32,159 nt of DNA from assembly GCA_012965955.1 (NCBI GenBank), contig DTRK01000138.1, positions 1 through 32,159 on the forward strand. The letters are read 5' to 3'. Below the pieces are notes generated by a model. The model did not search any database. It had not been told where the DNA came from and saw only the letters and a list, made by a program, of their open reading frames with translations. Made by a program: the position numbers and the translations under genes. Below, piece by piece: positions 6,001 through 29,019 of the stretch (the stretch's first letter is position 1; the number at the start of each line of letters is the position of its first letter). The DNA is from Flavobacteriales bacterium (GTDB lineage Bacteria > Bacteroidota > Bacteroidia > NORP154).

Positions 6001-6902
6001 GATAGGCCATTCACGGTAACTGATCGGGTCTTGGACCCTAATAAGGTTCCCAAGCTGTTGTAAACTTCCATTTGCACATTGTATGTTCCGTTATTCACAA
6101 ATGTGTGATTAAGGGTTGTGGAGAACGTTTCCTGGTACATTGAAGAGCCATCGTTAAAATACCAATTGTAGAGGAAGGCACCCAGCTGTGTTGTGAGATT
6201 TGTAAATGTAACCTGCAGGGGAGCGCATCCAGCATTTGTGGACATGCTAAAGTCAATTACCGTTGGGTCGTATAAGCGTATATCATCTATATAAAAACCC
6301 TCGTAGTTGTTTGCTACATTATCAACGGTATTAAATGCAACTCTAACATACACCGTTGAATTTCCGGCTATTGAGGAAATATCCAGGTTCAAACTCTGCC
6401 ATACACCCATTCCATCATTCAGGTTACCAATGTTGGGTTGGTTGTCGGCAACGGCCGTAAATGTGATACTATCTGTTGATAGTAGTACCTGAGCAACATC
6501 ATAACCCGTATAGTTTTCTGTTTGTAAGAAATAGTTAAAGCTAAAGTTTACTGATGAATAAGCACTTAGGTCAATTGCACCAGAGGTCATTTGGGCTCCT
6601 TCTGCAAATCCAGTGTTAAAGCTGGTGTCAGCAGGGTTTCCAAAGTAGGCTGTTTTAGACGTGGAATGACCAGAATCACCTCCTCGTATATCTGTATTAA
6701 CCCAGGAGAGCGTATTTTGGACGTTTGAATTGATGAATGGCCCCAGGGTGCCGCCTTCAAAGTCTTCCAGAAATATCGACGTTTGGGCCAAGCCGATGAT
6801 GGGAAACAGCGCTATGACTATACTTACCTTGAAACAATTCAGGGGATACTTGATAATTGAATTCACACGGTAATTGTAGAGACTTTTGAATAGGTTTTTC
6901 AT
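1..6902 (-). CDS. Giant secreted adhesin-like protein: signal peptide, N-terminal MAM/jelly-roll-like domain, about 15 PKD-like modules, then at least 11 SprB-type repeats. C-terminus lies beyond the left window edge
   Basis: Reverse-strand translation from ATG at 6902 (MKNLFKSLYNYRVNSIIKYPLNCFKVSIVIALFPIIGLAQTSIFLEDFEGGTLGPF...) was read to base 3 with no stop seen. The frame was spot-checked near 6000, 3000, 1500 and 5. Recurrent CPG...WDFGDGSP...CGNDTT modules are followed by C..G.DG...GGT.PY.Y.W repeats. The ORF track omits it because no stop lies in the window. An in-frame upstream ATG exists at 6950. Confidence 0.9.
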   Translation of the reverse strand, partial: MKNLFKSLYNYRVNSIIKYPLNCFKVSIVIALFPIIGLAQTSIFLEDFEGGTLGPFINSNVQNTLSWVNTDIRGGDSGHSTSKTAYFGNPADTSFNTGFAEGAQMTSGAIDLSAYSSVNFSFNYFLQTENYTGYDVAQVLLSTDSITFTAVADNQPNIGNLNDGMGVWQSLNLDISSIAGNSTVYVRVAFNTVDNVANNYEGFYIDDIRLYDPTVIDFSMSTNAGCAPLQVTFTNLTTQLGAFLYNWYFNDGSSMYQETFSTTLNHTFVNNGTYNVQMEVYNSLGTLLGSKTRSVTVNGLSSWEQLYLYPNNPCPGESVSFNAPFGFQKYIYNKGDGSPNDTLFNNWVNYQYSTPGTYIASVEIENVCGNNDTVLRDTITINSTMPFPTWINIGSSSPSVAACPNDNISFWGPWGFASYEWDFGDGNAITTTNSNVAHTYGIEGNFTVSCRVFNYCGDDSLLTLTQLVQYPPFPSVSLNINPTPACPGENVFLSAPWGYAAYEWDYGDGSPIDSSMNATRYHIYPTLGSYTVSVKVTQSCGNDTTLVGTLNVNSYVPFPATANLSSSPNPACPFEPIAMNGMSGYPYYEWDFGDGTPLENNTSASSSHIYATTGTYAASLKITDLCGTDTTLIDTVTINSSMPFPSSIGFAFSANPSCPGTVSINASAGYQFYTWDFGDGSSLETTTSNTNAHSYPQPGTYPIALKIVNYCGADTTLLDTLVVGYTPFPGNMYLNFYPTSSCPNENINFSTSWGYVSYDWDFGDGSTTTASSYVSHEFASTGNYIVSVTINQLCGNDTTLYDTVSIVNNQMIPSWVSLYTSPDVACPMQNIYMNGPWGFAQYIWDYGDGNVDTTTNSYIQYEYAAAGDYQVALTVANFCGIDTILNDSIKIDPDLEVGYASLYVWYQNGSSACPNEFVNLNGPYGYSSYVWDYGDGTSMDSGSFSVMNHAYADAGVYTAAVTVTNECGNDTTVYQSVTIDDNKPFGWVSLWSSMTPVCPGSDVRFNASSGYAAYIWDFGDGSPLDSTNTSNNKRQFAGAGTYIVEVKIFDYCGKDTTVSTTVTIDGNLATSAYINMYPNPICPNQEAIFSTDTNHVAYFWDFGDGFSAYGPAETNHSYAALGEYDVSVTITSHCGIDSTYTSSITVDTTTSFPSWMNFSGNPWQVCPGEIITLVTEDGFNNYFWDFGDGDTVTTSGSSIGHAYDVAGNYNAAVTITNGCGNSTTLTTTVNVSSSTNVFVPQITTANGAYCPGDQVSFLLSSWNGGEDNYTYVWDFDDGDMDTTIGVGATHVYDSAGSYTTSVTILNACGNSDMVIVPVNIVNNASPTLNSNIFGTLASTTIAGCAGDAIVFYFQGSSDNLWEFGDGSNGVATEEFMDENGITMTVIKHAYSNTGTYIVKLTLTNSCGNSTTDSLTIQISDNFLVDGGLILEPPANTGSYTTCSNINMIAFGGSSYEWDFGDGNTLTTISPTISHVFSDEGNYSISVTITNGCGNSTTFSDAVTIIESGGISPNISVPSAVTCFGGSDGTALAAPSGGLAPYQYQWDDDNTQSTAAATGLTAGTYSIIITDDLGCSADTSIEVGEAVAISISNSTTDATCGSSDGTATAVVDSGGVSPFTYAWSSGGNTSTDTGLSSGSYIVSVTDADGCSNSVIAAVSDVGGPTLSIAAPTDATCNGDADGALTATASNGTPPYQYTWSNSDNTAAITGLTAGEYIVTITDSTSCLTVGTAVVGEPDELEASFEVVEGECGEATGQSTVTVTGGTSGYFYQWDSNAGSQVTATATGLSANAYEVIITDVNSCTLTATTTVGNSNSPMLSADGTDVSCFGAGDGSIDLTVTGGTTPYVYLWTWTGGSSFVEDLSDLEPDDYTVMVQDGSDCWIGTSVEITEPQLSSTMSVTNTGCISGNNGAASVTVSSGYQPYTYLWSNSATSSSLSGLIADTYTVLVTDSNECTLNDTAIVSDPSAIVSGITATHVSCNGGSDGEAELTVSGGSAPYVYLWDNPGASTTADITVLAAGTYRVTITDSCSITAMDSIVITEPALLTVTMTYTDVSCYGGGDGTATATPSGGTIPYNYVWNNGQTDSTAVGLFPGLQAVNVFDLNGCIGANNVTIGEPGALTVAAAATDATCNGGADGTVSLTIAGGTIPYAYAWSNGDSTMNISGVTAGTYTVSVTDSCGSAVTASASVAEPAAPSLAVTTIDVSCNAGNDGSVDLTVSGGTSPYAYLWSNAATTEDISGLVAGTYSVAITDACGLTLADTSVITEPAQLTTSITGNNTTCYAVGDGSATVTAAGGTTPY

Positions 6903-7167
6903 GTGGTTATTTTTGTTTTTATAGTTCACATGCATCTTGTCTATTGACATGATCTCTCCCGCAATCATTCTCCTCTACAGCACGCTTCGTATAAATTGAT
7001 ACAGATATTAGTTCAACAATAGTTCTTTGGACACTTACCAAGTTAAACTAAAATGAGTTAATATTAAAATAATAAGACGTGAGAATAGAGTGCAGAGTTG
7101 TCTGTGATCAATGATGAGGTACCATAGGTGTGTTTGGCCTGATTAAGGAGCGTTGTGAATTGGATAA

Positions 7168-7217: not shown

Positions 7218-10200
7218 TTATTGAACTACGACTTTCTTGACGGATGTTCCCCTGGAAGAGACAACCTGAACATAGTACACTCCAGGCCCTTCGCCTGACA
7301 GGTCGAGATCTGTTCGCAATTCCCCGGCAATACCTGGTAACGCATTCTCTATGACCAATTGGCCTTCAATGGTGAATACCTTCAAGGTTGCCAGGTCCAG
7401 TTGCGGTATTGTGATCAGGATACTGAACTGACCTGTGTTCGGATTTGGATAAATCACCAGGTATGTGCCCAGATCAAATTCATTAAATCCAGAGATCGTG
7501 CCAACGGCTCCGGAGCCGACGATGGAATCGCCATCCGCATCATATACGGTTACGTTATAGATTCCTGCACATAATCCAGTAGCTGTGGCAGTAGTTTGAA
7601 TTAACCCATCATCCCATAAGTAGGTATATGGAGCTGTTCCGTCAGTAATCACAATTGTTGCTGTTCCTGTGCAACTATCCTGAACCTGATCTGTTGTTGT
7701 AACAGCAGCTGTCATATAATCCTTGTTGTCAAACGAAGAAGTGTTTGATTTTGATGAATTGAAGTTCTTGCCTTTTTCGGCCAGACATACTGAAGCAGTT
7801 ACAACGTCCACCCGGTAACTCAGCTTGCTGACCTGAGGGGCGCCTATATCTATCTTGATAAATACCGAATTAGTTACAGAATCAATAGCCACCCAAGTAC
7901 TGTCGAATCCTTTGGTATTACGCATAATTCGGTAATAAGCGAAATTGAACCCCTGGTAATTATCCCAGATTAAGGTGGCATCACCTCCTATTACATTGAC
8001 AGGTGCAAGGTTAATTGTTTTATGAAAATCACTTTTAGGCCCTTCATTTGCACATGAGTCCACTATTGAAATCTTATAACTATACGACAAGGAATTTGGG
8101 TTTGCATTTATAGTGTCCAAGTCCTCAAATAGGCTGAGTGAATCGTAGGCCACATTACCAATTAAAGTGTAATTCCCAATTACGTCACGGTAAACATTGA
8201 CGCTCGAAATTCCCAATCCAAGACTCGGTTTATCCCAAACCACAACGTTCATGGATGAAGTCGAATCCACAGTTACCACACATATTGAAATTGAATCCAC
8301 GGTAGTTGAAACGGTGGCAGAGTCAGTGGCAACGCAGCCAAAGGAATCCATTACGGTTACATGATAAACATCATCAGGCAATCCAGTTGCAGCAGCCGTT
8401 ATCTGTGCTCCCGGATCATCCCAGGCATAGGTATATGGAGCAACCCCACCAGAAACCCCCACTGATACCGAACCATCAGTTTGCCCGCAGTGGGCATCCA
8501 CGTTTGAAGTCGTCAATACCAACGGCGCTTCTTCTGTTAAGCTCACCGTAATAGAATCCTGGCACCCATTGGTATCAGTGGCTATTACCTCATAAGTGCC
8601 AAAGGTCAGGTTGCTGACATCTTCAGTGGTATCTGAATTTGACCAGTTGTATGTATAGGGCGCAGTACCCCCTGTCATGGTGAGGTCTATCGATCCATCA
8701 TTTCCTCCGGCACACGATATATTTGTTTCAGTTGTTGACAAGACAATCATCGAGGGTTCTGTTATCATACCCGTAGTAATTGTAACACAACCATTGGTAT
8801 CGGTAACGACTGCATCTACCCCACCATCACATAGGTCCACTGCCACAATTGTAACCTGACCATCTCCCCACAACACAGCGTAAGGGCTTGTACCCCCTGT
8901 TATGGTGACAGTTGCACTTCCATCGCATGTATCGAAGCAAGAGGTGTTTGCAATAGTTGAGATTGAAGCGGTCAATACATTCGGTTGCGTGATGGTAACG
9001 CTGGCGCTATCGGCACATCCTGCACTATCAACAACCATCACCTGATATGTTCCAGTGTCTAAATCGGTCGCCTGGGCATTGGATTGAGAGTTAAGATCAT
9101 TCCAGGTATAGGTATAATCACCTGTACCTGCGACTGCTAATGCTGTGGCAGTACCATCACCATCGCCGAAGCAGAGTACCATAGAGCTGTCAGAAATGGA
9201 TACTGATGGCCCCGGGATGTCACTGACCGTAGTGTTTGATGAAACAGTACAGCTGTTAGCATCTGCAATGTTCACTGTATCGGGGCCGTCTGCCAAACCT
9301 GTTATGCTGGAGCTCGATCCTCCACTTGTCCATGAGTAGGTGTAAGGTTCTGTCCCTCCTGTGGCCGTAGCCGCTATCCAGCCATCGCTTGAATTGCAGT
9401 GCTCTCCTGAAACGGCAAGGTTTACTGCCAGTACGTCTGGTTCTGTTACGCTAAAAGTCTGTGCCGTCTGGCAGCCACCGCCATCATTGAGTATTACGGT
9501 GTAGGAGTTGGCATCCAATCCACTAACATCCTGAATAAAGCTGCCATTGTGTAACCAAAGGTAGGTGTATGGTGTTGTGCCTCCTGATACAGTGAGGTCA
9601 ATTGCCCCATCACCGGAACCATTACAGGTGAGGTCATCCACCACAGCGGTAATTTCGGGAGAATTGGCGTTACTGACTATAACTGTGTATGTGGCAGTAC
9701 AAGAATTGGTATCGGTGATGGTCAGCGTGTAAGCACCAGCTACCAATCCCGAGTTTGATGAAGTGGTGACAGCGTTAGACCACAGGTATTCATACCCTGG
9801 TGTACCGCCGCTAACAGAAGCAACAATGCTCCCGTCTGCTACGCCACAGTTGGCATCTGCAATTGTTGTGGCAAGTGCAATAGGCAAGGGTTCGCTGACC
9901 GTTGCACTTTCGATTGTTTTACAGCCGGCTGAATCGGTTACCGTGACAGTGTATGTCCCCTCCTTTAACCCGGTGACATCCTCGATGGTATCTCCATTAG
10001 ACCATGCATAGGTGTAGGGTGTTGTACCTCCACTAACAGATATAGCCACCGCACCGTCAGAACCACCGTTGCAGGTAGCATCAGTAACCGTTGTACCGGA
10101 AATGGTAGTCCCGCCAACATCATTTAAGGTAAAGACCTGGGTATTCTGGCAACTATTCGAGTCGGTAATGGTCACTGTATAAGTGCCGGAGGCTAAACTA

Positions 10201-13200
10201 TCTGCTGTGGCAGAAGTATCTCCATTGTCCCACGCATACGTATATGGCGAGGTTCCTCCCGTTGTGCTTGTAATTGATACCGAACCATCAGCAGTTGCAC
10301 AACTTGCAGGAGTCATTGAAGCAGTTGCAATCAACATGGGAGGATCGGCGATGGTAATACTGGCTGAACCAGCACAACCGAGGTTATCAGACACTAACAC
10401 GGTATATGTTCCGGCGCCTAAATCTGTAGCAATCGCCGTGGATTGAGCTAACGGGTCATCCCACAGATATGTATATGGCAAAGACCCTCCCGTTCCGGCA
10501 GCAGTGGCCACAGCATCCGCTCCTCCATTACAAGTCAATTGAGCGGTTATCATAGCGGAGGCCGAAGCTCCTCCACCGTCAACCACAGTAATCTGCTGCG
10601 TGTAACTCGCCGTATTACCGCACGAATTAGTCATTGTGACAGTTACGGTATATGTTCCAGCAGAGTCATAATAATGGGTAACCTGGGCGCTGTTGGTAGT
10701 GACTGTTGCACCATCTCCATAATCCCAGGTATAGGAAGTTCCACCATAAGCCAGGAATCCAACACCCTGGCAAGTTGTAAATGAACCGCCACCATCAGGA
10801 GATTCTGCGAAGAAATCTCCGTCAACAGCAAGGCCAGAGCCTATGATTATCATTATTGAGTCAGATGCTGAGTTTGCGCAGCCATTTGTCAGCGTTAATT
10901 TAGCCCAATAGGAACCGGTATCTTGATATACGTGGGTAATTGATGAATAAGCACCAAATGAGGTTTGGATCACATCTACCGCTGAACCTGAACTCCCATC
11001 TCCAAAGTCCCAGGTATTGGTATAAATTCCTGCGAAGTAGAACAAGACGGCATCTCCCGGACATCCGGCAAAGCTTCCTTCAGCAGCAACACCAAAGATT
11101 CCATCATCATTACCTCCTGGAATTCCCAGGTTGGGAAAAGCACTATCAGTCACCGTAATAGTTAAACTGCTTGAATCAGAGAAACCGCAAGCATTGGTGC
11201 CGATTATGTTCACGGTGTACACCCCGGTGGAATCATATGAATGGTTAAGTCCAACACCCTGCGTGGTATCCAGTGTACCGTCTCCTAAGTTCCAGTAGTA
11301 TGTATAAGAAGTTCCGCCCAAACCTTCACTATTATTTGGGCCCAAGGCAACTATGTCACCAGGACACACATTATCGTTCAAAGTAATCATATCCACATCC
11401 ACAAACGTGTTGTTTGAATCCACTACTATTGTTGTCTTCAATGTTAGCTGGTTTCCACATCCATTCGATATCGTTACGGATGCTTCGAAAGTTCCCACAG
11501 TGTCGTATACATGTGTCAAATAATCTTGAGTTGTTGTCAGTGTATCACCATCGCCAAAATCCCAGAAAAATAAAGCCCAGTCATCGTCAATAGAGAAGTT
11601 AACGGCATCTCCCGGACATATTGTTGAGCTTGAGACGTCAAGCTCAATCTGTGGGGGTACTGGTGCATTGGCAGAAACTAAGAGTCCGCCCGTTAGCGTA
11701 GTATCCATTCCACAACCATTGGTAATGGTAACACTATAACTATAGGTGCCCAGTGAGTCATAATAATGTTCTGCCCAATCGCTGCCGGTTGTAATCGTAT
11801 ATCCGTCCCCAAAATCCCAATCGTAGGAGGCATAACCATATTCCGAACCTAAATTCACCCTATCTCCCGGACAAACTGGGTCCGGATAAGAATTCACCTC
11901 CATATTCATCGGGAAACCTATATTGTTCCCAACCACCAATGTGCTAGACAGTGTGGTATCATCACCACAGAAGTTAACTAAGGTTACCATTATTGGGAAT
12001 GAGCCTGTGTCAAGGTATGTATGGCCTATATTATTATAGGTAATTGAATCCACCGGGCTACCATCTCCATAATCCCATACATACAGGGCCATGCCAGCTG
12101 GAGCGTTGAATTGGGCGCCGCCAGGGCATATGGGAGATTGAAAGCCAATGCTGATGGAGGGCTGAAATCCCGCACTGTCATCAACAACTACCGTAGCATA
12201 AAGTGTGGAGTCATTTCCGCAGAAATTATACACTTTAACGGAGATTACGTACGTTCCAGCGGTATCAAAAGTGTGCGTAATACCATCATTACCTGAAGAG
12301 TCTGCGGGACTGCCATCTGCAAAATCCCATACGTAGGCCATGTATCCCCCTGGTGCGTTCATATACGTTTCTTCACCAGGACAAACCAGGTCGCTTGCTT
12401 GTATTTCAAACCAGGGCTGGTTTGGCAACCCTACTGAAGGGCTAACAATCACCGTTCCATAAAGGATCGTATCCCTACCGCAGTAATCATAGATTCGCAC
12501 GCTTTGAATATAGGCCCCCAAACTGGAATATGTGTGTGCATGCCACGATTCCGTAGTAGAGTCGCTGGGAGACCCGTCACCAGGGTTAAAGACATAAGCC
12601 AGATAGCCTCCAGGTGCATTAGTGCCAACCTCTTCTCCAGGACATACAGGTGAATTGAAACTTAGGTTTAACGCAGGCCAGGCCGCATCGTCTTTTACCT
12701 CAACTTGTGCCGTGGATGTATCCGTATTTCCACAGCCATTGGTAATGGCAAAGGTGACGGGGTAGAAACCCAGTGTGCTATAAGAATGAGTAGGGTATTG
12801 GCTTGTAGATGTCGTAGCATCCCCAAAATCCCAGTAAAAATCCGTACCATCGTTAGCGTAAGGGTAAAAGTTCACTGGTTGTAACGGACAAACAGGGTCA
12901 GGCCAGAATCCAAACTCCGCGTTTGGTATGCCTGTGCTATCCACGGATATGCCCTGTACAATTGTGTCAATACCGCAAATTCCAGTGGTAATCAAAGTGA
13001 CATTGTATACTCCCAAAGTTGTGTACGCATGATTGGCCCATTGTCCACTTGCTGAATCACCATCCCCAAAATCCCATAAGAAGGAACTAGCCAGTCCGTC
13101 ACCATTGAATCCAACTTCAGATCCTGGACAAACTGCTGTATCAGACATGTAAAAATCAGTTGCTTGTTGATATATCTCAAGCAGGTTGTAGCTGCTCCCA

Positions 13201-13481
13201 ATATAGCTGCCCAAACTATCATATCCGTAGAGGTTCACCTGAAAATTTCCATTCCACATGTAGGTATGGGAGGTATCAGTTCCCGTCCAGTAGCCACTAT
13301 AACCGTCACCAAAGTCAATAAGGTAAGTACTGCCTGCCGTGCTGGTGTTGGTAAATGTTACCGTAAGCGGAACGCAGCCCTGGGACACGTCCATTGTAAA
13401 GCTGGTTTGTGCGTAGGCAGTTGTAAGTGATAGACACAATGCCGTAATTATTAACGAGAGGGCTTTAGTAGGTGTGTTCAT
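7218..13481 (-). CDS. Giant T9SS-secreted PKD/SprB-repeat protein (about 11 PKD-like modules, 10 SprB-type repeats, FN3-like region, one more SprB-like repeat, type A sorting domain)
   Basis: 2087-aa ORF. Signal peptide MNTPTKALSLIITALCLSLTTAYAQ; repeated WDFGDG PKD cores; GGTTPYTYAWSNGDT repeats; C-terminal YPNPNTGQFSILI...GVYYVQVVSSRGTSVKKVVVQ typical of Por secretion sorting domains. Confidence 0.93.
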   Translation of the reverse strand: MNTPTKALSLIITALCLSLTTAYAQTSFTMDVSQGCVPLTVTFTNTSTAGSTYLIDFGDGYSGYWTGTDTSHTYMWNGNFQVNLYGYDSLGSYIGSSYNLLEIYQQATDFYMSDTAVCPGSEVGFNGDGLASSFLWDFGDGDSASGQWANHAYTTLGVYNVTLITTGICGIDTIVQGISVDSTGIPNAEFGFWPDPVCPLQPVNFYPYANDGTDFYWDFGDATTSTSQYPTHSYSTLGFYPVTFAITNGCGNTDTSTAQVEVKDDAAWPALNLSFNSPVCPGEEVGTNAPGGYLAYVFNPGDGSPSDSTTESWHAHTYSSLGAYIQSVRIYDYCGRDTILYGTVIVSPSVGLPNQPWFEIQASDLVCPGEETYMNAPGGYMAYVWDFADGSPADSSGNDGITHTFDTAGTYVISVKVYNFCGNDSTLYATVVVDDSAGFQPSISIGFQSPICPGGAQFNAPAGMALYVWDYGDGSPVDSITYNNIGHTYLDTGSFPIMVTLVNFCGDDTTLSSTLVVGNNIGFPMNMEVNSYPDPVCPGDRVNLGSEYGYASYDWDFGDGYTITTGSDWAEHYYDSLGTYSYSVTITNGCGMDTTLTGGLLVSANAPVPPQIELDVSSSTICPGDAVNFSIDDDWALFFWDFGDGDTLTTTQDYLTHVYDTVGTFEASVTISNGCGNQLTLKTTIVVDSNNTFVDVDMITLNDNVCPGDIVALGPNNSEGLGGTSYTYYWNLGDGTLDTTQGVGLNHSYDSTGVYTVNIIGTNACGFSDSSSLTITVTDSAFPNLGIPGGNDDGIFGVAAEGSFAGCPGDAVLFYFAGIYTNTWDFGDGSSGSAVDVIQTSFGAYSSITHVYQDTGSYWAKLTLTNGCANSASDSIMIIIGSGLAVDGDFFAESPDGGGSFTTCQGVGFLAYGGTSYTWDYGDGATVTTNSAQVTHYYDSAGTYTVTVTMTNSCGNTASYTQQITVVDGGGASASAMITAQLTCNGGADAVATAAGTGGSLPYTYLWDDPLAQSTAIATDLGAGTYTVLVSDNLGCAGSASITIADPPMLIATASMTPASCATADGSVSITSTTGGTSPYTYAWDNGDTSATADSLASGTYTVTITDSNSCQNTQVFTLNDVGGTTISGTTVTDATCNGGSDGAVAISVSGGTTPYTYAWSNGDTIEDVTGLKEGTYTVTVTDSAGCKTIESATVSEPLPIALATTIADANCGVADGSIVASVSGGTPGYEYLWSNAVTTSSNSGLVAGAYTLTITDTNSCTATYTVIVSNANSPEITAVVDDLTCNGSGDGAIDLTVSGGTTPYTYLWLHNGSFIQDVSGLDANSYTVILNDGGGCQTAQTFSVTEPDVLAVNLAVSGEHCNSSDGWIAATATGGTEPYTYSWTSGGSSSSITGLADGPDTVNIADANSCTVSSNTTVSDIPGPSVSISDSSMVLCFGDGDGTATALAVAGTGDYTYTWNDLNSQSNAQATDLDTGTYQVMVVDSAGCADSASVTITQPNVLTASISTIANTSCFDTCDGSATVTITGGTSPYAVLWGDGQVTIVAVDLCDGGVDAVVTDTNGCVTITTGMITEPSMIVLSTTETNISCAGGNDGSIDLTMTGGTAPYTYNWSNSDTTEDVSNLTFGTYEVIATDTNGCQDSITVSLTEEAPLVLTTSNVDAHCGQTDGSVSVGVSGGVAPYTYAWDDPGAQITAAATGLPDDVYHVTVMDSFGCVATDSATVSTTVDSISICVVTVDSTSSMNVVVWDKPSLGLGISSVNVYRDVIGNYTLIGNVAYDSLSLFEDLDTINANPNSLSYSYKISIVDSCANEGPKSDFHKTINLAPVNVIGGDATLIWDNYQGFNFAYYRIMRNTKGFDSTWVAIDSVTNSVFIKIDIGAPQVSKLSYRVDVVTASVCLAEKGKNFNSSKSNTSSFDNKDYMTAAVTTTDQVQDSCTGTATIVITDGTAPYTYLWDDGLIQTTATATGLCAGIYNVTVYDADGDSIVGSGAVGTISGFNEFDLGTYLVIYPNPNTGQFSILITIPQLDLATLKVFTIEGQLVIENALPGIAGELRTDLDLSGEGPGVYYVQVVSSRGTSVKKVVVQ

Positions 13482-13648: not shown

Positions 13649-13728
13649 GGGGAGTGCACGCCATGAAGCCTCGCTGGCGCTCACTTCATGCCTCGCGATC
13701 CCTCCTAACCGTGCAGGGAATCAAATCC
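13649..13728. repeat. Interspersed intergenic repeat, copy A
   Basis: ggagtgcacgccatgaagcctcgctggcgctcacttcatgcctcgcgatccctcctaaccgtgcagggaatcaaatcc matches 15809-15887 at about 74 of 78 positions by eye. Confidence 0.85.
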
Positions 13729-13751
13729 AGGTCCAGGTTTCCGTCATAATG

Positions 13752-13791
13752 GGGGAGTGCTCGCCATGAAGCATCGCTGGCGCTCACTTCA
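13752..13791. repeat. Interspersed intergenic repeat, copy B (truncated to the first ~40 bp)
   Basis: ggggagtgctcgccatgaagcatcgctggcgctcacttc shares the 5' half of copies A and C, then diverges (aattagaaac). Confidence 0.8.
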
Positions 13792-15724: not shown

Positions 15725-15754
15725 AGGGAATCAATTCCCGCTCGCTTCGCGAGC
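15725..15754. repeat. Partial copy of the 3' end of the interspersed repeat (agggaatcaattcccgctcgcttcgcgagc)
   Basis: Nearly identical to 15874-15904. Contains the perfect hairpin gctcgc-ttc-gcgagc and is followed by a T-rich run. Confidence 0.75.
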
Positions 15755-15808
15755 TTGTTATTTTTTATTCCGTCACTCGCCCGAGCATGTTCGGTTTTTT
15801 TCAATCCA

Positions 15809-15904
15809 GGGAGTGCTCGCCATGAAGCAGTGCTGGCGCTCACTTCATGCCTCGCGATCCCTCCTAACCGTGCAGGGAATCAAATCCCGCTCGCTTCGCG
15901 AGCC
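15809..15904. repeat. Interspersed intergenic repeat, copy C, with terminal GCTCGCTTCGCGAGC hairpin
   Basis: About 74 of 78 positions match copy A, then the cccgctcgcttcgcgagc tail shared with 15725-15754. Confidence 0.85.
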
Positions 15905-15953
15905 TGCATTTTTTATTTTCACGCTTACTCAAGCGAGCTTGAGCCGCGCTCAA

Positions 15954-15985: not shown

Positions 15986-15997
15986 TTGATCATCAAG

Positions 15998-16071
15998 TGA
16001 ACCCGGAGGGAGTCGAACCCCCAACCTCCTGATCCGTAGTCAAGTGCTCTATCCAGTTAAGCTACGGGTCC
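15998..16071 (-). tRNA. tRNA-Arg (anticodon ACG)
   Basis: GGACCCG-TA-GCTTAACTGGATAGAGC-A-CTTGA-CTACGGA-TCAGG-AGGTT-GGGGGTTCGACTCCCTC-CGGGTTC-A: cloverleaf arms pair; anticodon loop CTACGGA gives ACG. CCA is not encoded. Confidence 0.93.
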
Positions 16072-17091: not shown

Positions 17092-20000
17092 TTATTCTGT
17101 ATCTGAATCCAGCGTGTTTTTTAGGTATTCTTCAACAGAGAGAATAATGCCGTCTTGAAATACCACAACGCTTGAATTTTCTATTCCCTCAGACTCGACT
17201 ACAATGCGTAGCTCCTTTGCATCTTCATATCTTATAAATTCACCTACGGTATAAATGGCCTTGTCATCAATATTGTGTACTTCAATTCCAAGGTCTTTAA
17301 TAGAAAAAAAAGTGGTTGCCTCATCAACAGGGACGTCTTTGCCAAACTCCCCAATCTTAACCATATACCTGGCATCACCTGCTGGAACCTCGACTGAGAC
17401 ATCCGTTTTGTATAACTCATGGAGGTTGATAGCGGTTTGTTGTGTCTCCAGCGCCTGTTGCTCCAAAGCATCTGCGGTTCGGTATGCCGCTGCTTGTTCT
17501 TCCAGGTCATTCGTGGTGGCAAAAATCCTAATGAACCTGGCCTGAGTGTATAGGTTGTCTGCTTCTTCATGGTAGTTGTTGAGTACCTGCACCTTCTCAG
17601 AATCCATTGTGCCTTCAGATTTGGTTTGCTGTGCTATTTCACGATTGTTCTCCAGGTACCTCAAACTGTTATTCACCTGCTTTTGACTGGCTAACGCTTC
17701 CACCTCTAACTTTTCAGCCTCTTGTAGTGCCAGTGCTTTGTCTTTAGGGTCTTCTATGGTTGCAGCTGTCTTTCTCAGCTCTTGTGCCTTTTCAAATTTG
17801 GCAACAGATTCCTCCTGATCGCTCTTTACTTCATCCAGGTCTTCTGGTGTGAGGTATGTGCTGTTGGAAGTTAGGTCCTCATATTGCAAGACATTTGTTC
17901 TAAAAGAGTAGCTGTTGATAAGCGATTTGCCCTCAGATGCCTTGTTCCGTTTTTGAGCTGCGGCTATTTCAAACTTCTCAGCTTCCACCAAAGCACTCTC
18001 TGTAAATGCTGGATCAGCTGATTCTGCTTTCTCTCTAATGTCTTTTGCTTTCTCATCGTAGCTAGCAGCTTCACGTTCAAGCTTTTCTACAACAAGTATC
18101 TCATCCACCATTGTTTCCTTATTGATGACAGCCGACTCGATTGTTTCTTCATTAATTTCAAAGGCTTCTTCAGGACTGGTTGCTACAGTGGTCTCTTCAG
18201 CTATATCCTCCACTGGCGGATCAGCAGCGTTCACAGTTGTGGAAGTATAAACCGTTGCTGAGACCTCCGTACCTGTTTCTGACGTTGATATGTCCGGCTC
18301 AGTTGTGGAGGTTTCTGGTATTGTTTGCGTGCTTATGTCAACATCAGCAGACGTTACTGCATCACTCTCTGCATCCAGCAGCCTGGCTTCTACATATGTT
18401 TTTTCTAAGTCATCCTCTGTGTCTTTCTTTTCGGCTTCTAATTGTTCACCCTTCTCAAGCCTGTCATCATTGTCCATTGAGATATCAGCAGGTACATTGT
18501 CAGGATTTGAAGGATCAGGGGTACCTGCACGTTCTGGCATACTTCGTGCCTGCTCAACTGATATCCGCTTTCCATTCAGGTATGCTGTCACAAATGCATC
18601 CGCAATACCTTTTTCAATAACTACTTCTTTCCTATTCGATGCTTCATTGAAGCTGTTGAACTTACCATGGTTGTACCTGATATAACCGTTGGATGTTCTC
18701 AATGTGTATAGATCGTTCAGGTTGAATTTCTCACCCAGGTTGGTGGGCCTGGAGTACACCCCTACCTGTACCGTATAAAAGAGTTCGTCAATAGTGCCAA
18801 TGTCAATGGTTCCTGGTACAGATGTAGCAGAAGTTCCTGATGATGTGCGAAAGGTTGATCCTGCACTTACAATAGGTTGTGGAACGGTTCCATCCTCCAA
18901 CATTCTTCTTGCATCGGCGATCGACACTCGAGCTCCATTGTAAAATGCCACGACGAAAGCATCGTCATACCCCATACCTTGAATTACTCCTTTGGCTTCG
19001 TTAGCTGACGATATTTGGCTGAATAGTCCGGCAGAGTAACGAATGAAACCCATATCGGTTTTCTCACCCATGATTGGGTTAATACCCTTAAACAAGTCTT
19101 GGGGGATCGGATTTCTAAATGCCCCAACTTGAACTTTAAAAAGGAGGCCTGATGGAATTATAGGGTTAACTGGGATTGGATTGGATGGCGTGTAGGGCAC
19201 CATTTCCTCAACAGCGAAAATATCAGCCTCCAGTGGTTCATCTAAGCTTAACATGGTCACTGCCTCAGAAGTTAGCGTGGTAAATGTTTCTTCAGGACTG
19301 GTCATTTCCGAAACGTTGCCTGTCGTGTTTGTGGTTGCAGTTTCCTCAAAAGTTGTAGTATTTGAGCTATTATCAGGAGGCTCTACATATTCAATTTCAT
19401 TTGTTTCTGGTTCATTTACGATGAATTGAGCATCATCAATAGCAGTAGTTGAGGGAGTTGGTTCTGTTCTAAGTGCCGTAGTTGATTCAACTTCATCATT
19501 CATAACGGCAGCCAAAATTTCTTCTGATGAGGCATCTTCAAGGGGAACCCCACCAACAGTTACATCTGTTTCGTCTTGGGGACTGGAATTATCTGAGCGA
19601 GTAGTGGAAGGATCAGTTTGGGGTTGGCTAGTCGCAGTCTCACTGGTATTTGCTGAAGCGTCAGCTAGAACAGTCTCATTGCCTGGACCAAGTTGCTTTG
19701 CCCTTGCCATCTCCGCATCAGCTTGTGTCTCAAGTTGTTCTGCTTTGTCTAAGGCCGCCATCATTTCTTCAGGGTCATCAATGGTTTCTATACTTTCATA
19801 TATGCGTTTTGCTTCTTTTCTATTAGCTTCACTGTCTGAAACGAGTTCGTCCGCTGTTCGCGGGTCTGATGATGCAATTGTAGTTGCAGGAGTTGAAGCA
19901 GATACCGTCCCTGGCTGTGAAGACGTTGAAGTCGTTGTGTTGCTAGTCGTAATGTTTGAAGCTGTTCTCGCGCTCTCACTATCGGTTGGGCTACTGTCGG

Positions 20001-23000
20001 TTGTAGGGGGTGCTGGTTCTGTTGAAACCAGAGGATCAGAAGCCCCCGTTGAAGATTCATCGCCAGTGTTGCTGGACGCAAGAGAGCTCTCGCTGGCCGG
20101 CTTTTCACCTAGAAGTGCCGCCACCTCAGCATCAGATTCAAAGTATATGTTCAGAGCTTCCCTTTGCTTGTCTAAGGCTTGGGACTCCAGGTCATTTGCC
20201 CTGCGTAGCTCTGCGGCTATTTCCGCCGGATCTTCCAAAGTCTCAGCGTTTGCTCGGACAGTTTTCTTTTCTTCGGAGAGGCCATTATACTCAGTTGAAA
20301 GGGCATCCAGGCTCTCTTGCTCTTGAGCTGACATTGGTCGAGCTACCTTTACCGCTTCAAAAAGCACGCCTTCATATTTGTATAACTCATGGAGGTTGAT
20401 AGCGGTTTGTTGTTTCTCCAGCGCTTGTTGCTCCAAAGCAGCGGCGGTGAGGAACGCCGCTTCTTTTTCTTCTGGATCATTAGTGGTGGCAAAAATCCTA
20501 ATGAGCCTGGCCTGATTGTATAGGTTGGCTGACTCTTCATGGTATTTACTGAGCTCCTGCACCTTCTCAGAATCCATTGTTTCTTCAGATTTGGTTTGCT
20601 GTGCTATTTCACCCTTGTTCTCTCGGTAGCTCAAGCTGTTATTCACCCGCTTTTGACTGGCTAACGCTTCCACCTCTAACTTTTCAGCCTCTCTTAGTGC
20701 CAGTGCTTTGTCGTTAGGGTCTTCTATGGTTGCAGCCGCCTTTCTCAGTTCTTGTGCCTTTTCAAATTCGGCAACAGATTCCTCCTGCTGACTCTTTGCT
20801 TCATTCAGGTCTTCAGGTGTGAGGTACGTGCTGTTTGAAGTTAAATCATCATACTGTGCCACATTTGTTCTAAAGGAATAGCTGTTGATAAGCGCTTTGC
20901 CCTCAGATGCCTTGTTCCGTTTTTGAGCCGCGGCTATTTCAAACTTCTCAGCTTCCTCCAAAGCACTCTCTCTAAATGCTGGATCAGCTGATTCTGCTTT
21001 CTCTCTAATGTCTTTTGCTTCCTCATCGTAGCTAGCAGCTTCACTTTCAAGCTTCTCCACAGCAAGTATCTCATCTACGATTGTTTCCTTATTTATGACA
21101 GCCGCCTCGATCGTTTCTTCATTAATTTCAAAGGATTCTTCAGGACTGGCTGCTATAGTGGTTTCTTCAGCTATTTCCTCTGCTGGAGGATCAGCAGCGT
21201 TCACAGTTGTGGAAGCATCAACCGTTACTGAAACCTCCGCATCTGTTTCTGAGATTGATATGTCCGGCTCAGTTTCTGACACTACGCTAACCAACGGTTG
21301 TTCATAGGCAGACTCAGTTGTGGAGGTTTCTGGTATTGTTTGTGTGCTTATGTCAATATCAGCAGACGTTACCGCATCACTCTCTGCATCCGTTTCGGTG
21401 GGTGAAGTTTCAGTAGCGGCAACTTCGACGGTTTTTGAAGAACTTAGTATTTCACTGGAAAGCTCTTCCTGGAAGTCAGCTTCTTTTCTGAGTGAGGTTG
21501 CTTCTGCATCCAGCAGCCTGGCTTCTACATATGTTTTTTCTAAGTCATCCTCTGTGTCTTTCTTTTCGGCTTCTAATTCCTGAGCCTGAGATAATATCTC
21601 TTCTTTAATAACAGGATCCTTAGTTCTCTCCGCTTGCTCTATAAGGTTTTTAATGTCTGTATCAATCTCGGTTATCTCATTCTCCATGAACTGAATCTTC
21701 TCATAGGCTTCCCCGGCTTGTTCTTCTTTCACCTCAGCCTCCCTCTCCATCTCTTCAGCTCGTTGTGATATACCTCCTGGGTCATTCTCAATTGACTGAG
21801 CTAACACTTTTTGTTCGATCAGTAGTGGAATTGCCTCACCTTTCGGACTGCTGGTCGTGGCGGTTTTTATCTTTTCTGCAGTAGTAAATGCAGTAGTCGA
21901 TTGCCGCTCTCTCCTCTCTGCCTCAGAGGTGAGCGACTTGGCAATTTCAAACGATACCTTTGCCTGCTTTAATAGTTTCTCTGATTCCTTGTCCAAAATA
22001 TCGGCCTTTTGGGAAGCTGTTTCCTTTTGCCTGGCGTCAGCTATATTGTCTAGTCTGGAACGGATAGCTTCGGCCTCCTTAGCCTTGGTTGTAGATTGTT
22101 CTTTCTTGTTCCTGGCGGTTTCGAATGCCGCTTCTGCTTCGTTCTTTAATCTAAGCTCGTCCTTCTTAATCTTCTCCGCATACTCAAACCCTATGTTTAC
22201 CATTTGCTCGTCGGTAAGCTCAGTAAAGGTCTCTGCTTCCATCGATTCAGGTGTTTGCGATTCTGTTGCTGGTGAGCTCGAAGAAACTTCAGCAAAGTCT
22301 TCAGCTTTTGCGTTGACGTCAAGTTTAGCCTCCTCCAGTATCTCGTCTATTGACAGAAGTTCTACTGACTCATCAGTTACTGCCATATCTGGCTCTCCAT
22401 CTGGGGCAAATCTGCCTGGAGGCTCCTTCAGCATAACTTTATATACAGAAATCTTACCTTGAATGCTGGATCTCTTAGAGGAGAAAAATGCCGTTCTTTC
22501 ATCAGCTGTTGGTAAGTACAGAATATCATCGTCAGCTGAGTTGATGGCGAAATCGAGATTCACTGGTTTTGACCATCTGCTGGTAGAAGAATCGTATCTA
22601 GCTTTGAATATATCATAACCGCCCATGCTATTGTGGCCATTTGACGAGAAGTAAAGAATATTTTTTTTCGGATGCATCACGGGAAAGTTCTCATCGTAAG
22701 CTGAGTTAATGTAGTCGGGTAGTCGTTCAGCCATTCCCCAGGCACCGTCAGATTTCTTTAAAACCATATACAGGTCTCGGTTATCGCCGCTCTTTCCATA
22801 ACTTGAAAAGAACAGCCTCTTGGCATTCTTCCCCAGATAAACCAATGATTCTTCGTTTCTTTCAATGTCGTTGGGAGTTTTGAAATCATCGGGTTTCACC
22901 AGTATCTTACCCGTCAATAACTCCATGTCATAGGTTCGGAAGTATTCAGTCTCCTTGATCTCTGTTTTGCTCAACACGCCCAATTCCGTCTTGTTGCGGA

Positions 23001-23475
23001 GTAACGTCAATCCATTTTCGCACATTTGCACGCGCCTCTCCACCGGTAAGGCGGCTAAATCCTTTTTTGAAGCACTGTTCTTAAACTGGTTGTAAGCGGT
23101 AATTGCCTTTTTAAATTGGTAGTTGAGATGGTAGGCATAGCCCAGGTAGTAGTAGGCCTTCTGATCAGCATTCAGATTGGCTGTTACCTTTTCCAGCAGT
23201 GCAATTGCACTTCCTTTATTCTCGTCTGCAAACAGAACACATACACTGAATTTGAAGTTGTAATTAATGTTTTCAGGATACACACTCAACAGCTGGGAAA
23301 AAAGTGGAAAAGCCTCGACGTACAACTCCTCTTTGAAGAGGTCCTCAGCCTGCTTGATTAGCTCCTCCACGGAATCATCATCAATGGCGACGCTCGAAGT
23401 GAGAAGCGGGGATATCAACAATGCTGAGGCGAGTAAAGTTACTCGCATCCACCTATGTGAACAAGTCTTCATCAT
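17092..23475 (-). CDS. Giant envelope protein: signal peptide, TPR, PD40/WD40-like propeller, long helical-repeat region, two SPOR-like domains, duplicated helical block, third divergent SPOR-like domain
   Basis: 2127 aa. TPR-like AEDLFKEELYVEAFPLFSQLLSVYPENINYNFKFSVC; PD40-like LFFSSYGKSGDNRDLYMV / ILYFSSNGHNSMGGYDIFKAR; FKVQVGAFRNP, FYTVQVGVYSRP and YMVKIGEFGKD SPOR-type starts. Confidence 0.85.
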   Translation of the reverse strand: MMKTCSHRWMRVTLLASALLISPLLTSSVAIDDDSVEELIKQAEDLFKEELYVEAFPLFSQLLSVYPENINYNFKFSVCVLFADENKGSAIALLEKVTANLNADQKAYYYLGYAYHLNYQFKKAITAYNQFKNSASKKDLAALPVERRVQMCENGLTLLRNKTELGVLSKTEIKETEYFRTYDMELLTGKILVKPDDFKTPNDIERNEESLVYLGKNAKRLFFSSYGKSGDNRDLYMVLKKSDGAWGMAERLPDYINSAYDENFPVMHPKKNILYFSSNGHNSMGGYDIFKARYDSSTSRWSKPVNLDFAINSADDDILYLPTADERTAFFSSKRSSIQGKISVYKVMLKEPPGRFAPDGEPDMAVTDESVELLSIDEILEEAKLDVNAKAEDFAEVSSSSPATESQTPESMEAETFTELTDEQMVNIGFEYAEKIKKDELRLKNEAEAAFETARNKKEQSTTKAKEAEAIRSRLDNIADARQKETASQKADILDKESEKLLKQAKVSFEIAKSLTSEAERRERQSTTAFTTAEKIKTATTSSPKGEAIPLLIEQKVLAQSIENDPGGISQRAEEMEREAEVKEEQAGEAYEKIQFMENEITEIDTDIKNLIEQAERTKDPVIKEEILSQAQELEAEKKDTEDDLEKTYVEARLLDAEATSLRKEADFQEELSSEILSSSKTVEVAATETSPTETDAESDAVTSADIDISTQTIPETSTTESAYEQPLVSVVSETEPDISISETDAEVSVTVDASTTVNAADPPAEEIAEETTIAASPEESFEINEETIEAAVINKETIVDEILAVEKLESEAASYDEEAKDIREKAESADPAFRESALEEAEKFEIAAAQKRNKASEGKALINSYSFRTNVAQYDDLTSNSTYLTPEDLNEAKSQQEESVAEFEKAQELRKAAATIEDPNDKALALREAEKLEVEALASQKRVNNSLSYRENKGEIAQQTKSEETMDSEKVQELSKYHEESANLYNQARLIRIFATTNDPEEKEAAFLTAAALEQQALEKQQTAINLHELYKYEGVLFEAVKVARPMSAQEQESLDALSTEYNGLSEEKKTVRANAETLEDPAEIAAELRRANDLESQALDKQREALNIYFESDAEVAALLGEKPASESSLASSNTGDESSTGASDPLVSTEPAPPTTDSSPTDSESARTASNITTSNTTTSTSSQPGTVSASTPATTIASSDPRTADELVSDSEANRKEAKRIYESIETIDDPEEMMAALDKAEQLETQADAEMARAKQLGPGNETVLADASANTSETATSQPQTDPSTTRSDNSSPQDETDVTVGGVPLEDASSEEILAAVMNDEVESTTALRTEPTPSTTAIDDAQFIVNEPETNEIEYVEPPDNSSNTTTFEETATTNTTGNVSEMTSPEETFTTLTSEAVTMLSLDEPLEADIFAVEEMVPYTPSNPIPVNPIIPSGLLFKVQVGAFRNPIPQDLFKGINPIMGEKTDMGFIRYSAGLFSQISSANEAKGVIQGMGYDDAFVVAFYNGARVSIADARRMLEDGTVPQPIVSAGSTFRTSSGTSATSVPGTIDIGTIDELFYTVQVGVYSRPTNLGEKFNLNDLYTLRTSNGYIRYNHGKFNSFNEASNRKEVVIEKGIADAFVTAYLNGKRISVEQARSMPERAGTPDPSNPDNVPADISMDNDDRLEKGEQLEAEKKDTEDDLEKTYVEARLLDAESDAVTSADVDISTQTIPETSTTEPDISTSETGTEVSATVYTSTTVNAADPPVEDIAEETTVATSPEEAFEINEETIESAVINKETMVDEILVVEKLEREAASYDEKAKDIREKAESADPAFTESALVEAEKFEIAAAQKRNKASEGKSLINSYSFRTNVLQYEDLTSNSTYLTPEDLDEVKSDQEESVAKFEKAQELRKTAATIEDPKDKALALQEAEKLEVEALASQKQVNNSLRYLENNREIAQQTKSEGTMDSEKVQVLNNYHEEADNLYTQARFIRIFATTNDLEEQAAAYRTADALEQQALETQQTAINLHELYKTDVSVEVPAGDARYMVKIGEFGKDVPVDEATTFFSIKDLGIEVHNIDDKAIYTVGEFIRYEDAKELRIVVESEGIENSSVVVFQDGIILSVEEYLKNTLDSDTE
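17407..18443 (-). repeat. Internal segmental duplication, C-terminal copy (1037 bp)
   Basis: Collinear with 20377-21578 (starts tttgtataactcatggaggttgatagcggtttgttg, ends tcttttcggcttctaatt). Lacks two in-frame segments of 45 and 120 bp. Confidence 0.95.
20377..21578 (-). repeat. Internal segmental duplication, upstream copy (1202 bp)
   Basis: Collinear with 17407-18443. The extra 165 bp lie between short direct repeats (ctcagtt; ctgcatcc). Confidence 0.95.
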
Positions 23476-24408: not shown

Positions 24409-27400
24409 TTATTCGCCCTGAACTCTACTTAGGAATACCTTTTTCTTCCTTTCTGAGGAGATAAGATACTGATAAGGCATTCCCCCTTTTTCTTCGACCT
24501 TTAGCTTTCTTTTGGCGGGTTTTTCTTCCTTAATAGGATTATTGAAGTCATCATTCGTAGAAACGGCCTGCATAAGCCCTCGGGAGTAGGTGAAAAAATA
24601 CCAGCTATCTTCATTAGGTTCAAGGTATATTGTAAGCACATCCCCTCCACGTTTCTTTCGAATTTCGACGTAGCCTTCAACGTTTTTGTTGATCTGCCTC
24701 TTACCAATATTTCCAATACCGATTGAGCCGTTCGATATGTACGAATTATGTTCCTTGCTCCAAGACATTTTGAGGTCTGTGAAGACAATTGATTTTTCCA
24801 ATTCGTTGGGAAATTTCTTAAATGAGCCTAGTAAATTCACTTCTGAAACAAGCTTGTCAGCCACATCTTTACCCACCAATTCCATCAATCCGCGTTCGTA
24901 AACGGGTCTATCAAAATTAAGCGGTTCCAGATTGATATCGTCCTGTAAACTAACTGCCAACGCTTTCATGGATTGGTCAGACAGAAAGAAGTCCACACCC
25001 ATTAAAAGGTCTAGCCCAAGCGAGTCACTAGCCAGGTAGTGTTGCCCCATTCCGGTCGTTGTAAGTTTAACCTGCCCGATCCTTTCACCGAATCCAATTC
25101 GCCCCTCACCGTAAACAATACAGTCCTTGGTTTTAAGGCTAACGTAATTACCCGGTTGCCTAATTTCGATGAGTTTGTCTTTATTAGAGATCCTATATTC
25201 TTTAGACTTCTTATCGTAGAATAAGAAGCCTTCAGCAGTGATCATCGCTAGATCTCTTCGCCCACCTAAAGGCGATATAAATGTAGAGTACACATAAAAA
25301 GAGTCTTGATTAAGGATAAGCCCGAAAGAGAGTACGTCATCCGTAAGGTTTAAGGTGTTATCAGTAATGGGAATATAGATCTCTTCAGGATTGATCTCTG
25401 TATTGATCTGAAACCAATGGCTGATGATCTTCTCACAATAGTGACTAATCTTGCAGAACCCTTCGAAATTCAAGTATTTCTGAGTGGCTGTTAAAGATGT
25501 TTTACCCGAAAAAGCAAATTTTGGACTTAGGGCGAAGTTTGCCGTATCACTAATTTCTCCAAAGGCATATGTGCGCATAGTGGTATCTACTCCTATTTCG
25601 TCAAAATAGATTGTTTGTTTTCGGTTCATATTATCGATATAGTCATACTTTCCAACACCTTCGTAGCTTTTCTTGCCGTGAATTTTAACATCAGCCCCAT
25701 AAATATTATGATACTTGGTGACGATATTGGCCATAATCTTTGCATTCTTTAGCGGGTCCATCTTAGCCTTTTTACGAACGATGACAATTCCACTGTCTGG
25801 GTAAATCCTCGCATCAGCTACGTGGATAAACTCTACTTGTTCGGCTGTGATCACCTTTGATTTTACGTTATAGTTGGCCTGTTCCGCAAAGAAATATAGT
25901 GAGTCTTGTTTTGGATGAGTCGAAGTAAATTTGGATCCCTTCAACACAACTTCTTCTCCACCTTCAATAACGGTAGAAGAACCCTCAGAGCTCAATGCGA
26001 TATCTCCACCATCCATATCCCAAGTGAATTCGCTTACATAACAGATATATTGGTTCGGTGCAAATACGACCAATGAACCGCCGATGTTGGATTTGAATAC
26101 ACCCTTTCTGTCGATAAAGTCAACATGTGCGCGTACATTGTCTGTAGTGAAGGCAAACTCGGAGTCAACATCAGTCGCGAGTTTAAACCCAGCGGTATCA
26201 GCATCAAAAGACATATTGTTGAATTTCACGAGGTTACTTGTAAGTCTCGCTTTGGAGAAACTAACAAGGCCAGAGCCTTCAATGCCGTCAGGATTAAGTG
26301 CAATACGCCCGTGGATGGTTGCTTCGCCGTTGAAAAGATCCATCGGGTCTTCTTTATCGTACACATACATGACATCATTAGGGGGTTCCCAATGGATGGA
26401 TACATTTTCTGCAATGACCTGAGGGAATTGTACCGGTTCTGTAGCTCCCTTGTTGATGTAGCTTTGTGCATTGGCATTCATGGAGTCTGGGAAAAATGTA
26501 ATGTCATCTGATTCGGCCGTAGAACGTAGATACTCTAGTGTGCCACTACCCTGCAGCCCCTTGTGGCTCAGTGATATGGCACTTGTGTATTTACCTTTAC
26601 CACCGTAGACCTCAAATCCGGGTTCTGGTGTCGGACGGGTAAATCCAAGTGAGTAATCAGGCATAACACCCAAATATTCTTCAAAATCAGGGAATATTCC
26701 TCCGGAAACAAAAGTGCCCTTTAGCGCAACAGATGCCGGGTCAAAGTTGTCCAAACTATCAATGGAAAAAGGTTCCAGGTGAAAGTAGAAGTTATCTTTT
26801 TTATAAACACCCCTCTGAATTGAGGAACGTTGATAGAAGGTGTACGAATCCTTAAGACTGTGAAATATGGGATAGGTAGGGGAGGGTTTATATCCGGATT
26901 TGTTAAATGGTTTATCCACGAGCAGCTCTCCATTGATATACTCAATTACTGTTTTGATGTGGATGATGTCTCGACCACCTTCTCTGTTTTCTTCTCCATA
27001 TATGCTCAGACGCAACGAGTCTACATTCTTCAAATTGATCTTGAAGTTGTCGTATTCAAAAGAAAATTCTCTTCCGAAAAAGTCAAATAATCCAGCGTGA
27101 ACCTGACCAGCAAACGTAAAGTCACGGTTTTTCTTTACTGATATCTTCTGTTTAGCAGGATAGATATATACGTTCTGGGAGTCACTGAGAAATATGCTTC
27201 GTACCCCATTGATATTTAGATCATAGTTGAGTAAATTAAGACTCGCATTCTTGTCATTTTTGGTGTTTGACATGAAATTGATTACATCATAATCTTGCTT
27301 TCCTGCATTTGCTGCCAGGTAATCAAACACTTTCTCTTTTATAAATACGCGGTCTTCGGCGAAATCAAAGTTGAGAAATCCCATATTGGTGAGGTTCATA

Positions 27401-29019
27401 ATCTGTTGGCGGACTTGCACGATTGGCAGTCTTAAAAAAGAAGAAAATTCATTCACGTAAAACTCTCTCGTATCAGCATTTTTTTTAGAGAACTGTTTGA
27501 GCTTTACCAAAGGATGATATTGGTCTCTTCCCTGAAGTTGTTCATACTTGTTGTGAAGGTAAGAGTCTGAGGATGAGAACTTAGCCTTAGAGTCTTTAGA
27601 TATACCCAGTAACTTCCAGAACTTAATCTGCGGGTCGTCAATGTCCCAGTATATAGCTTCGAAGTCCATTTCCAGTGCGTGGTATGAATTGAAATATGGA
27701 CTTTGCGCCAATCCTGCTTCCTCTCTTATTAAGGTAAGCTCTCTGTTAATTATCTTGTCATTCACCTTCTTGATAACGAATCTGAGACGCAGTTGTGGAT
27801 GGTATATAGAATCCTCGTCCAGATAGATTGTTACCGCTGATTTTGAGGATGTGATTCGTTCTTCCTGGATTACAAATTTCTTGGATGCCGCAACCAGGAA
27901 TCTGTCAATCGAGGCTTTAATAGTATCATTTTCATAATCCCATCGAATGATCAGGTAAGCATCTTCTTCCTCACTTCCTAACCCTATGAGTTTGGCTCCC
28001 TCCATTGAAAATCCACCTACATAATTCACCTTATCAAAAATGTTGTCTATGTGAAGTCGTTTGTCATCTGACTCAAATCTGGGGTAGCTGGCATTTTTGA
28101 CATCGACATTGGCCTTTACTTTATCCGTTAAGGTACCTGTTAGCTCGTAGTCGAAGAAGTTGTTATTAAAGAAGGTGACATTTTCAGCAGAATAGGTGGC
28201 ACGATTCAATTCTATCGAGTAATTCGATAATGTAGCCAACACAACATCCTCTGGAATACCGGCGCGAAGCCAATTGACCTTTCCTCCTCTTCCCTGCCAA
28301 ATTCTACTTGTCGGGTAATAGGTTCCTGATGTTTGATATATAATGGAGCTATCTCCCTTTGAGAAACATTTAAGATCCAAAGTTTTGAAAGTTACTTTAG
28401 GAAGGCTGTCAAATTCAAAGACGTAATCCTGCTTGCTGGAAAGCCAGGTTACAGAGGCCGACTTATATAGCACATTGCTTGCAAAGAGATCGCTAGAAAA
28501 ATCCAGGAATGCACTGATCTTATTTGTTCGGGCTTTCTCAATAAGTTTATTCAGGCTTGCTTGCCATGCAGCGAAACTTTCAGCTGTTTGCCCCGCCGTT
28601 TCAAAGTTTATCAGCGTCAGTAGATAGCTAACGAACTGAGATGGCTTCATCCTTTTCTTCAATAGTGCATTGGAGGTTGTAGAGATAAAGGCAATCTGCT
28701 CATCACTTAATTTCCTGGAACTGGCACTATACTGAAAGGATATGGAGTCTCCCCGTGCCTTCATCCTTTTTTTAAGTGCGGCGTTCGCTGTTTTGTAGAT
28801 CTTTTCTTGCTCATTTAGAGGTAAACCCTCTATTTTCCATATCGCTTGAAATTCGTTCATAAGGGCTTCTCCACCTTCGTATTGAGCAGTCATGAATCCG
28901 TAGAGCTCTTCATAATACTTGTCAGGTTCTGAACTAAATTTTCGAAGTGTTTGTGCTGTCGCTATTTCAGCCATTAATAGAGCCGCAAGCACCAGTGATA
29001 TTTTCACAAGTTTATTCAT
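24409..29019 (-). CDS. Large envelope protein of unknown function (1536 aa, beta-strand-rich)
   Basis: Signal peptide MNKLVKISLVLAALLMAEIATAQ; no recognised catalytic motif. Its ATG overlaps the tpiA stop in an ATGA (29016-29019). Confidence 0.85.
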   Translation of the reverse strand: MNKLVKISLVLAALLMAEIATAQTLRKFSSEPDKYYEELYGFMTAQYEGGEALMNEFQAIWKIEGLPLNEQEKIYKTANAALKKRMKARGDSISFQYSASSRKLSDEQIAFISTTSNALLKKRMKPSQFVSYLLTLINFETAGQTAESFAAWQASLNKLIEKARTNKISAFLDFSSDLFASNVLYKSASVTWLSSKQDYVFEFDSLPKVTFKTLDLKCFSKGDSSIIYQTSGTYYPTSRIWQGRGGKVNWLRAGIPEDVVLATLSNYSIELNRATYSAENVTFFNNNFFDYELTGTLTDKVKANVDVKNASYPRFESDDKRLHIDNIFDKVNYVGGFSMEGAKLIGLGSEEEDAYLIIRWDYENDTIKASIDRFLVAASKKFVIQEERITSSKSAVTIYLDEDSIYHPQLRLRFVIKKVNDKIINRELTLIREEAGLAQSPYFNSYHALEMDFEAIYWDIDDPQIKFWKLLGISKDSKAKFSSSDSYLHNKYEQLQGRDQYHPLVKLKQFSKKNADTREFYVNEFSSFLRLPIVQVRQQIMNLTNMGFLNFDFAEDRVFIKEKVFDYLAANAGKQDYDVINFMSNTKNDKNASLNLLNYDLNINGVRSIFLSDSQNVYIYPAKQKISVKKNRDFTFAGQVHAGLFDFFGREFSFEYDNFKINLKNVDSLRLSIYGEENREGGRDIIHIKTVIEYINGELLVDKPFNKSGYKPSPTYPIFHSLKDSYTFYQRSSIQRGVYKKDNFYFHLEPFSIDSLDNFDPASVALKGTFVSGGIFPDFEEYLGVMPDYSLGFTRPTPEPGFEVYGGKGKYTSAISLSHKGLQGSGTLEYLRSTAESDDITFFPDSMNANAQSYINKGATEPVQFPQVIAENVSIHWEPPNDVMYVYDKEDPMDLFNGEATIHGRIALNPDGIEGSGLVSFSKARLTSNLVKFNNMSFDADTAGFKLATDVDSEFAFTTDNVRAHVDFIDRKGVFKSNIGGSLVVFAPNQYICYVSEFTWDMDGGDIALSSEGSSTVIEGGEEVVLKGSKFTSTHPKQDSLYFFAEQANYNVKSKVITAEQVEFIHVADARIYPDSGIVIVRKKAKMDPLKNAKIMANIVTKYHNIYGADVKIHGKKSYEGVGKYDYIDNMNRKQTIYFDEIGVDTTMRTYAFGEISDTANFALSPKFAFSGKTSLTATQKYLNFEGFCKISHYCEKIISHWFQINTEINPEEIYIPITDNTLNLTDDVLSFGLILNQDSFYVYSTFISPLGGRRDLAMITAEGFLFYDKKSKEYRISNKDKLIEIRQPGNYVSLKTKDCIVYGEGRIGFGERIGQVKLTTTGMGQHYLASDSLGLDLLMGVDFFLSDQSMKALAVSLQDDINLEPLNFDRPVYERGLMELVGKDVADKLVSEVNLLGSFKKFPNELEKSIVFTDLKMSWSKEHNSYISNGSIGIGNIGKRQINKNVEGYVEIRKKRGGDVLTIYLEPNEDSWYFFTYSRGLMQAVSTNDDFNNPIKEEKPAKRKLKVEEKGGMPYQYLISSERKKKVFLSRVQGE

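Follow-up and report, generated by a model that had tools for sequence, protein, structure and literature searches.

A dispersed module copy and two apparent slippage-type deletions within the gene for a large predicted envelope protein of a marine Flavobacteriales genome

The PorE protein of the type IX secretion system is built from TPR, propeller, CRD, and OmpA_C-like domains (PMC7192894), and some small indels in bacteria are known to arise by slippage at short repeats (PMC2884548). We analyzed a stretch of DNA of 32,159 nucleotides, referred to here as the window, from the MAG of a marine Flavobacteriales bacterium (3.1 Mb in 316 contigs) whose nearest named relatives are uncultured Flavobacteriales MAGs. 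The ORF listing of the window contains a reading frame of 2,127 amino acids (aa) on the minus strand (17092..23475), and its product resembles PorE in having an N-terminal TPR and PD40 propeller and, as predicted here, a C-terminal peptidoglycan-binding module. No papers linking SPOR proteins to type IX secretion were found in a literature search.

The host protein and its surroundings

From its hydrophobic N terminus, the protein continues through TPR, a PorE-like PD40 propeller, a long helical-repeat region, and two SPOR domains (SPOR1 and SPOR2) to the second copy of a duplicated module (copy B) and, finally, SPOR3. A Pfam search with the whole 2,127-aa protein gave no match; the protein was then searched in pieces, which led to weak but consistent matches to TPR (aa ~84 to 130) and PD40. 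The NCBIfam PorE model (NF052230) matched the propeller only (aa 221 to 346), with a score of 65 bits that is far below the 600-bit cut-off for membership. SPOR1 and SPOR2 (aa ~1443 to 1647; 18535..19149, minus strand) were identified through Pfam SPOR, a CwlC-like structure model, and a profile match to PDB entry 1x60, which ranked first in the profile search of solved structures. All 36 aligned members matched Pfam SPOR, with E values as low as 1.7e-11 in relatives, while the window's own protein scored 19.6 bits compared to a cut-off of 21. The SPOR1-2 model gave a TMt of 0.67 with the CwlC cell-wall-binding domain (1x60) and 0.57 with FtsN (1uta), and a fold search with this model returned no match at an E value of 0.001 or better. 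The modelled SPOR fold and the Pfam SPOR matches among family members together indicate that SPOR1 and SPOR2 are predicted members of the SPOR domain family. The SPOR3-like domain (aa ~2036 to 2120; 17116..17370, minus strand) is a conserved C-terminal domain that was present in 68 of 80 relatives; it was poorly modelled and, when searched alone, gave no Pfam SPOR match. Taken together, these features predict a large cell-wall-binding envelope protein, which would be anchored to peptidoglycan in the periplasm.

The gene is flanked by genes for PlsY and an M48 protease both here and in the two same-genus genomes, G001 and G002. A 1,536-aa reading frame at 24409-29019 had no Pfam match and is kept beside PlsY in relatives. 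Elsewhere in the window, 3-6968 and 7218-13481 encode two adjacent giant proteins with many PKD and SprB repeats, and the second of these has a type IX secretion sorting domain at its end. The intergenic DNA at 13650-13791 and 15725-15917, near a tRNA-Arg at 15997-16071, contains short palindromic repeats that are rich in GC, such as GCTCGCTTCGCGAGC and a unit with GCTGGCGCTCACTTCATGCC; except for one weak match on contig C221, they were found in this contig only.

Anatomy and direction of the duplication

The duplicated module is present as copy A (aa 634 to 1033; 20377..21578, minus strand), which is undeleted and matches the sole copy found in relatives, and copy B (aa 1679 to 2023; 17407..18443, minus strand), which lies between SPOR2 and SPOR3. 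An earlier sequence-only reading of this DNA had described these intervals as collinear copies of 1,202 and 1,037 bp whose 165-bp length difference was the sum of a 45-bp and a 120-bp segment, and it had called for a pairwise alignment. MAFFT aligned the copies end to end at 91.2% identity, with 91 substitutions in 1,037 aligned bases; the alignment had just two gaps, which were of those lengths, and every other difference was a substitution. The offsets between the copies given in that reading (2970, 3015, and 3135) were correct, and the frame was kept as claimed, with phases that agree and a 2,127-aa reading frame that stays open. The edges of the copies were sharp, with 13 to 17 matches per 50 bp outside compared to 40 to 49 inside. 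As collinear, sharply bounded homologues within one gene, the two copies represent an intragenic segmental duplication. They are separated by 1.9 kb that includes SPOR1 and SPOR2, which makes the duplication dispersed and led us to reject a tandem duplication. A mobile or genome-wide repeat was rejected because the genome holds no further copy, and tandem arrays were rejected as a cause because the window contains none. The only microhomology found that might bear on how the module was first copied was a similar LE.EK-like motif at the 5' edge.

The second copy was absent from G001 and G002 and from G005 and G006, which belong to the same family (the G006 orthologue is split over two contigs); each of these instead has SPOR2, a shorter linker, and SPOR3, and this is the empty site that the comparison with relatives proposed earlier was meant to reveal. 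The linker between SPOR2 and SPOR3 is 389 aa long here and 16 to 169 aa long in 69 relatives, so that a short linker represents the state before the duplication. Copies A and B were sisters in a tree of the module (support, 1.0), and 10 and 15 changes relative to G001 were unique to the two copies, indicating that they have evolved at similar rates. Since the relatives have no second module and the copies are sisters with similar rates, copy B is best regarded as a lineage-specific copy of copy A. Between the copies, dS was 0.196, dN was 0.068, and dN/dS was 0.35 (344 codons, averaged over both branches), and the last of these values suggests constraint. The duplication had been called recent, a term that holds in a relative sense: the event postdates the divergence from the closest species sampled, but with a dS of about 0.20, it is not very young. 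Internal duplications of at least 300 bp and at least 80% identity were found in 4 of 63 full-length relatives and were tandem in all 4; a dispersed copy beyond SPOR2 was found in the window only and in no sampled relative. This restricted distribution and the 316 contigs of the assembly are what would be expected if copy B were a chimera created during assembly of the MAG, but such an artifact would not readily account for 91 substitutions between the copies with a dN/dS of 0.35, for a frame that is kept at both edges, or for a recipient linker that flanks the insert on both sides much as in G001, and we consider it very unlikely.

Junctions, polarity, and mechanism of the losses

Both segments missing from copy B are bounded by direct repeats in copy A. 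The 45-bp segment (21268..21312, minus strand) includes one CTCAGTT and is followed by a second (7 bp; 21313..21319, minus strand); it is missing at 18297/18298 of copy B, where a single CTCAGTT is kept (18298-18304). The 120-bp segment (21383..21502, minus strand) includes one TCTGCATCC and is followed by a second (9 bp; 21503..21511, minus strand); it is missing at 18376/18377 of copy B, which keeps a single TCTGCATCC at 18368-18376. The CTCAGTT repeats had been placed at 21268 and 21313 before, and these positions were confirmed. The 120-bp segment had likewise been recognized as bounded by repeats, but these had been given as 8 bp at 21384 and 21504 rather than as 9 bp at 21383 and 21503. 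When deletions were placed along this gene, with the real site included, junction homology of at least 7 bp was found in 0.25% of the placements of a 45-bp deletion and homology of at least 9 bp in 0.16% of those of a 120-bp deletion. Because so few placements reach these lengths, the junction repeats exceed chance. Lost segments flanked by direct repeats, of which one is retained, are the pattern of slippage-type deletion.

Insertion of the two segments into copy A, with target-site duplications of 7 and 9 bp, would likewise leave two short repeats in one copy and one in the other. However, the 120-bp segment encodes ATSLRKEADFQEELSSEIL..., and SLR.EAD...SSEIL from this segment is conserved in relatives that have a single copy. 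In the 45-bp segment, PLVSVVS is encoded, for which relatives have PLISIVS or PLVSIVS; it lies in a fast-evolving linker that aligns poorly, and this short PLVSIVS-like motif is its sole tie to the relatives. Because the relatives have counterparts of both segments, we rejected insertion into copy A, an explanation that we regard as highly improbable, and both segments appear instead to have been lost from copy B. The ancestral state would thus have contained them, which is clear for the 120-bp segment and less firmly indicated for the 45-bp segment, and by parsimony, the deletions would have followed the duplication. The G002 orthologue carries a 30-bp tandem array (L029 6612-6709) in the Ser/Thr/Glu-rich linker equivalent to the one deleted in the window, and because of this array, the linker can be said to change its length in more ways than one.

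The earlier claim of slippage-type deletion is supported by the repeats of 7 to 9 bp at both junctions and by the relatives, and judged from the junctions, slippage at short repeats is the mechanism that fits best; microhomology-mediated repair or template switching would give an identical scar. Divergence between the copies is uneven. The 85 bp of copy B that span the 120-bp junction (18359..18443, minus strand) are identical to copy A, and the 146 bp between the 45-bp junction and the copy's end (18298-18443) contain 3 differences, compared to 88 in the other 891 bp. The permutation p value was 0.003 in a change-point test and 0.027 in a longest-run test. These values suggest local gene conversion between the copies before or with the deletions. 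They would also be expected had the deletions accompanied an episode of gene conversion or template switching between the copies instead of resulting from two independent slippage events; yet the junctions are separate and do not share a repeat, the tract of low divergence is short, and the p value for run length was only 0.027, so that we consider this course of events unlikely.

We prefer slippage as the mechanism and think it highly probable that, once this lineage had separated from its closest sampled relatives, a helical spacer module present in single copy in the central part of the gene was duplicated in frame into the short SPOR2-SPOR3 linker, and that the duplicate subsequently lost 120 bp between 9-bp repeats and 45 bp between 7-bp repeats. 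These losses would have removed part of a Ser/Thr/Glu-rich, probably disordered linker and left the helical bundle intact. In a structure model of copy B plus SPOR3, which was based on an alignment of 4 sequences, most of the helical part had a pLDDT above 85, while residues 41 to 123 were below 50, and both junctions fell within that stretch or at its edge. As far as this low-confidence region can indicate, the deletions thus appear to have shortened the linker and one helix end while leaving the bundle untouched. A fold search with the copy B model found nothing with an E value below 0.001. Copy B is likely a spacer of roughly 345 residues that moves the last wall-binding (SPOR3-like) domain away from the other two. 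That this lengthening was adaptive, with constraint preserving copy B as an additional spacer that separates SPOR domains binding the wall while it still undergoes gene conversion with copy A, is a tentative proposal to which we assign a low probability.

Comparison with known systems

The events and processes proposed here are of known kinds, those of ordinary bacterial gene remodelling, and this locus is of value because its history is legible nearly step by step: it holds a record of length change in a long envelope protein, in which a module was copied to a dispersed site and then pruned at short repeats, and comparison with outgroups gives each change its direction. Where PorE has the CRD and OmpA_C domains, the protein has three SPOR-like domains together with helical repeats and linkers that amount to ~1,000 aa. 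SPOR1 and SPOR2 share the SPOR fold with envelope proteins such as CwlC, FtsN, and DedD; unlike in those proteins, three SPOR-like domains here end a very large PD40 protein, and the last of them is displaced by the duplicated module. The in-frame losses, the direct repeats of 7 to 9 bp, and the one repeat kept at each junction are shared with short-homology-dependent illegitimate recombination (replication slippage) in bacteria. What differs is that the losses here lie inside one copy of an intragenic duplication, so that the undeleted sequence is preserved in the same gene.
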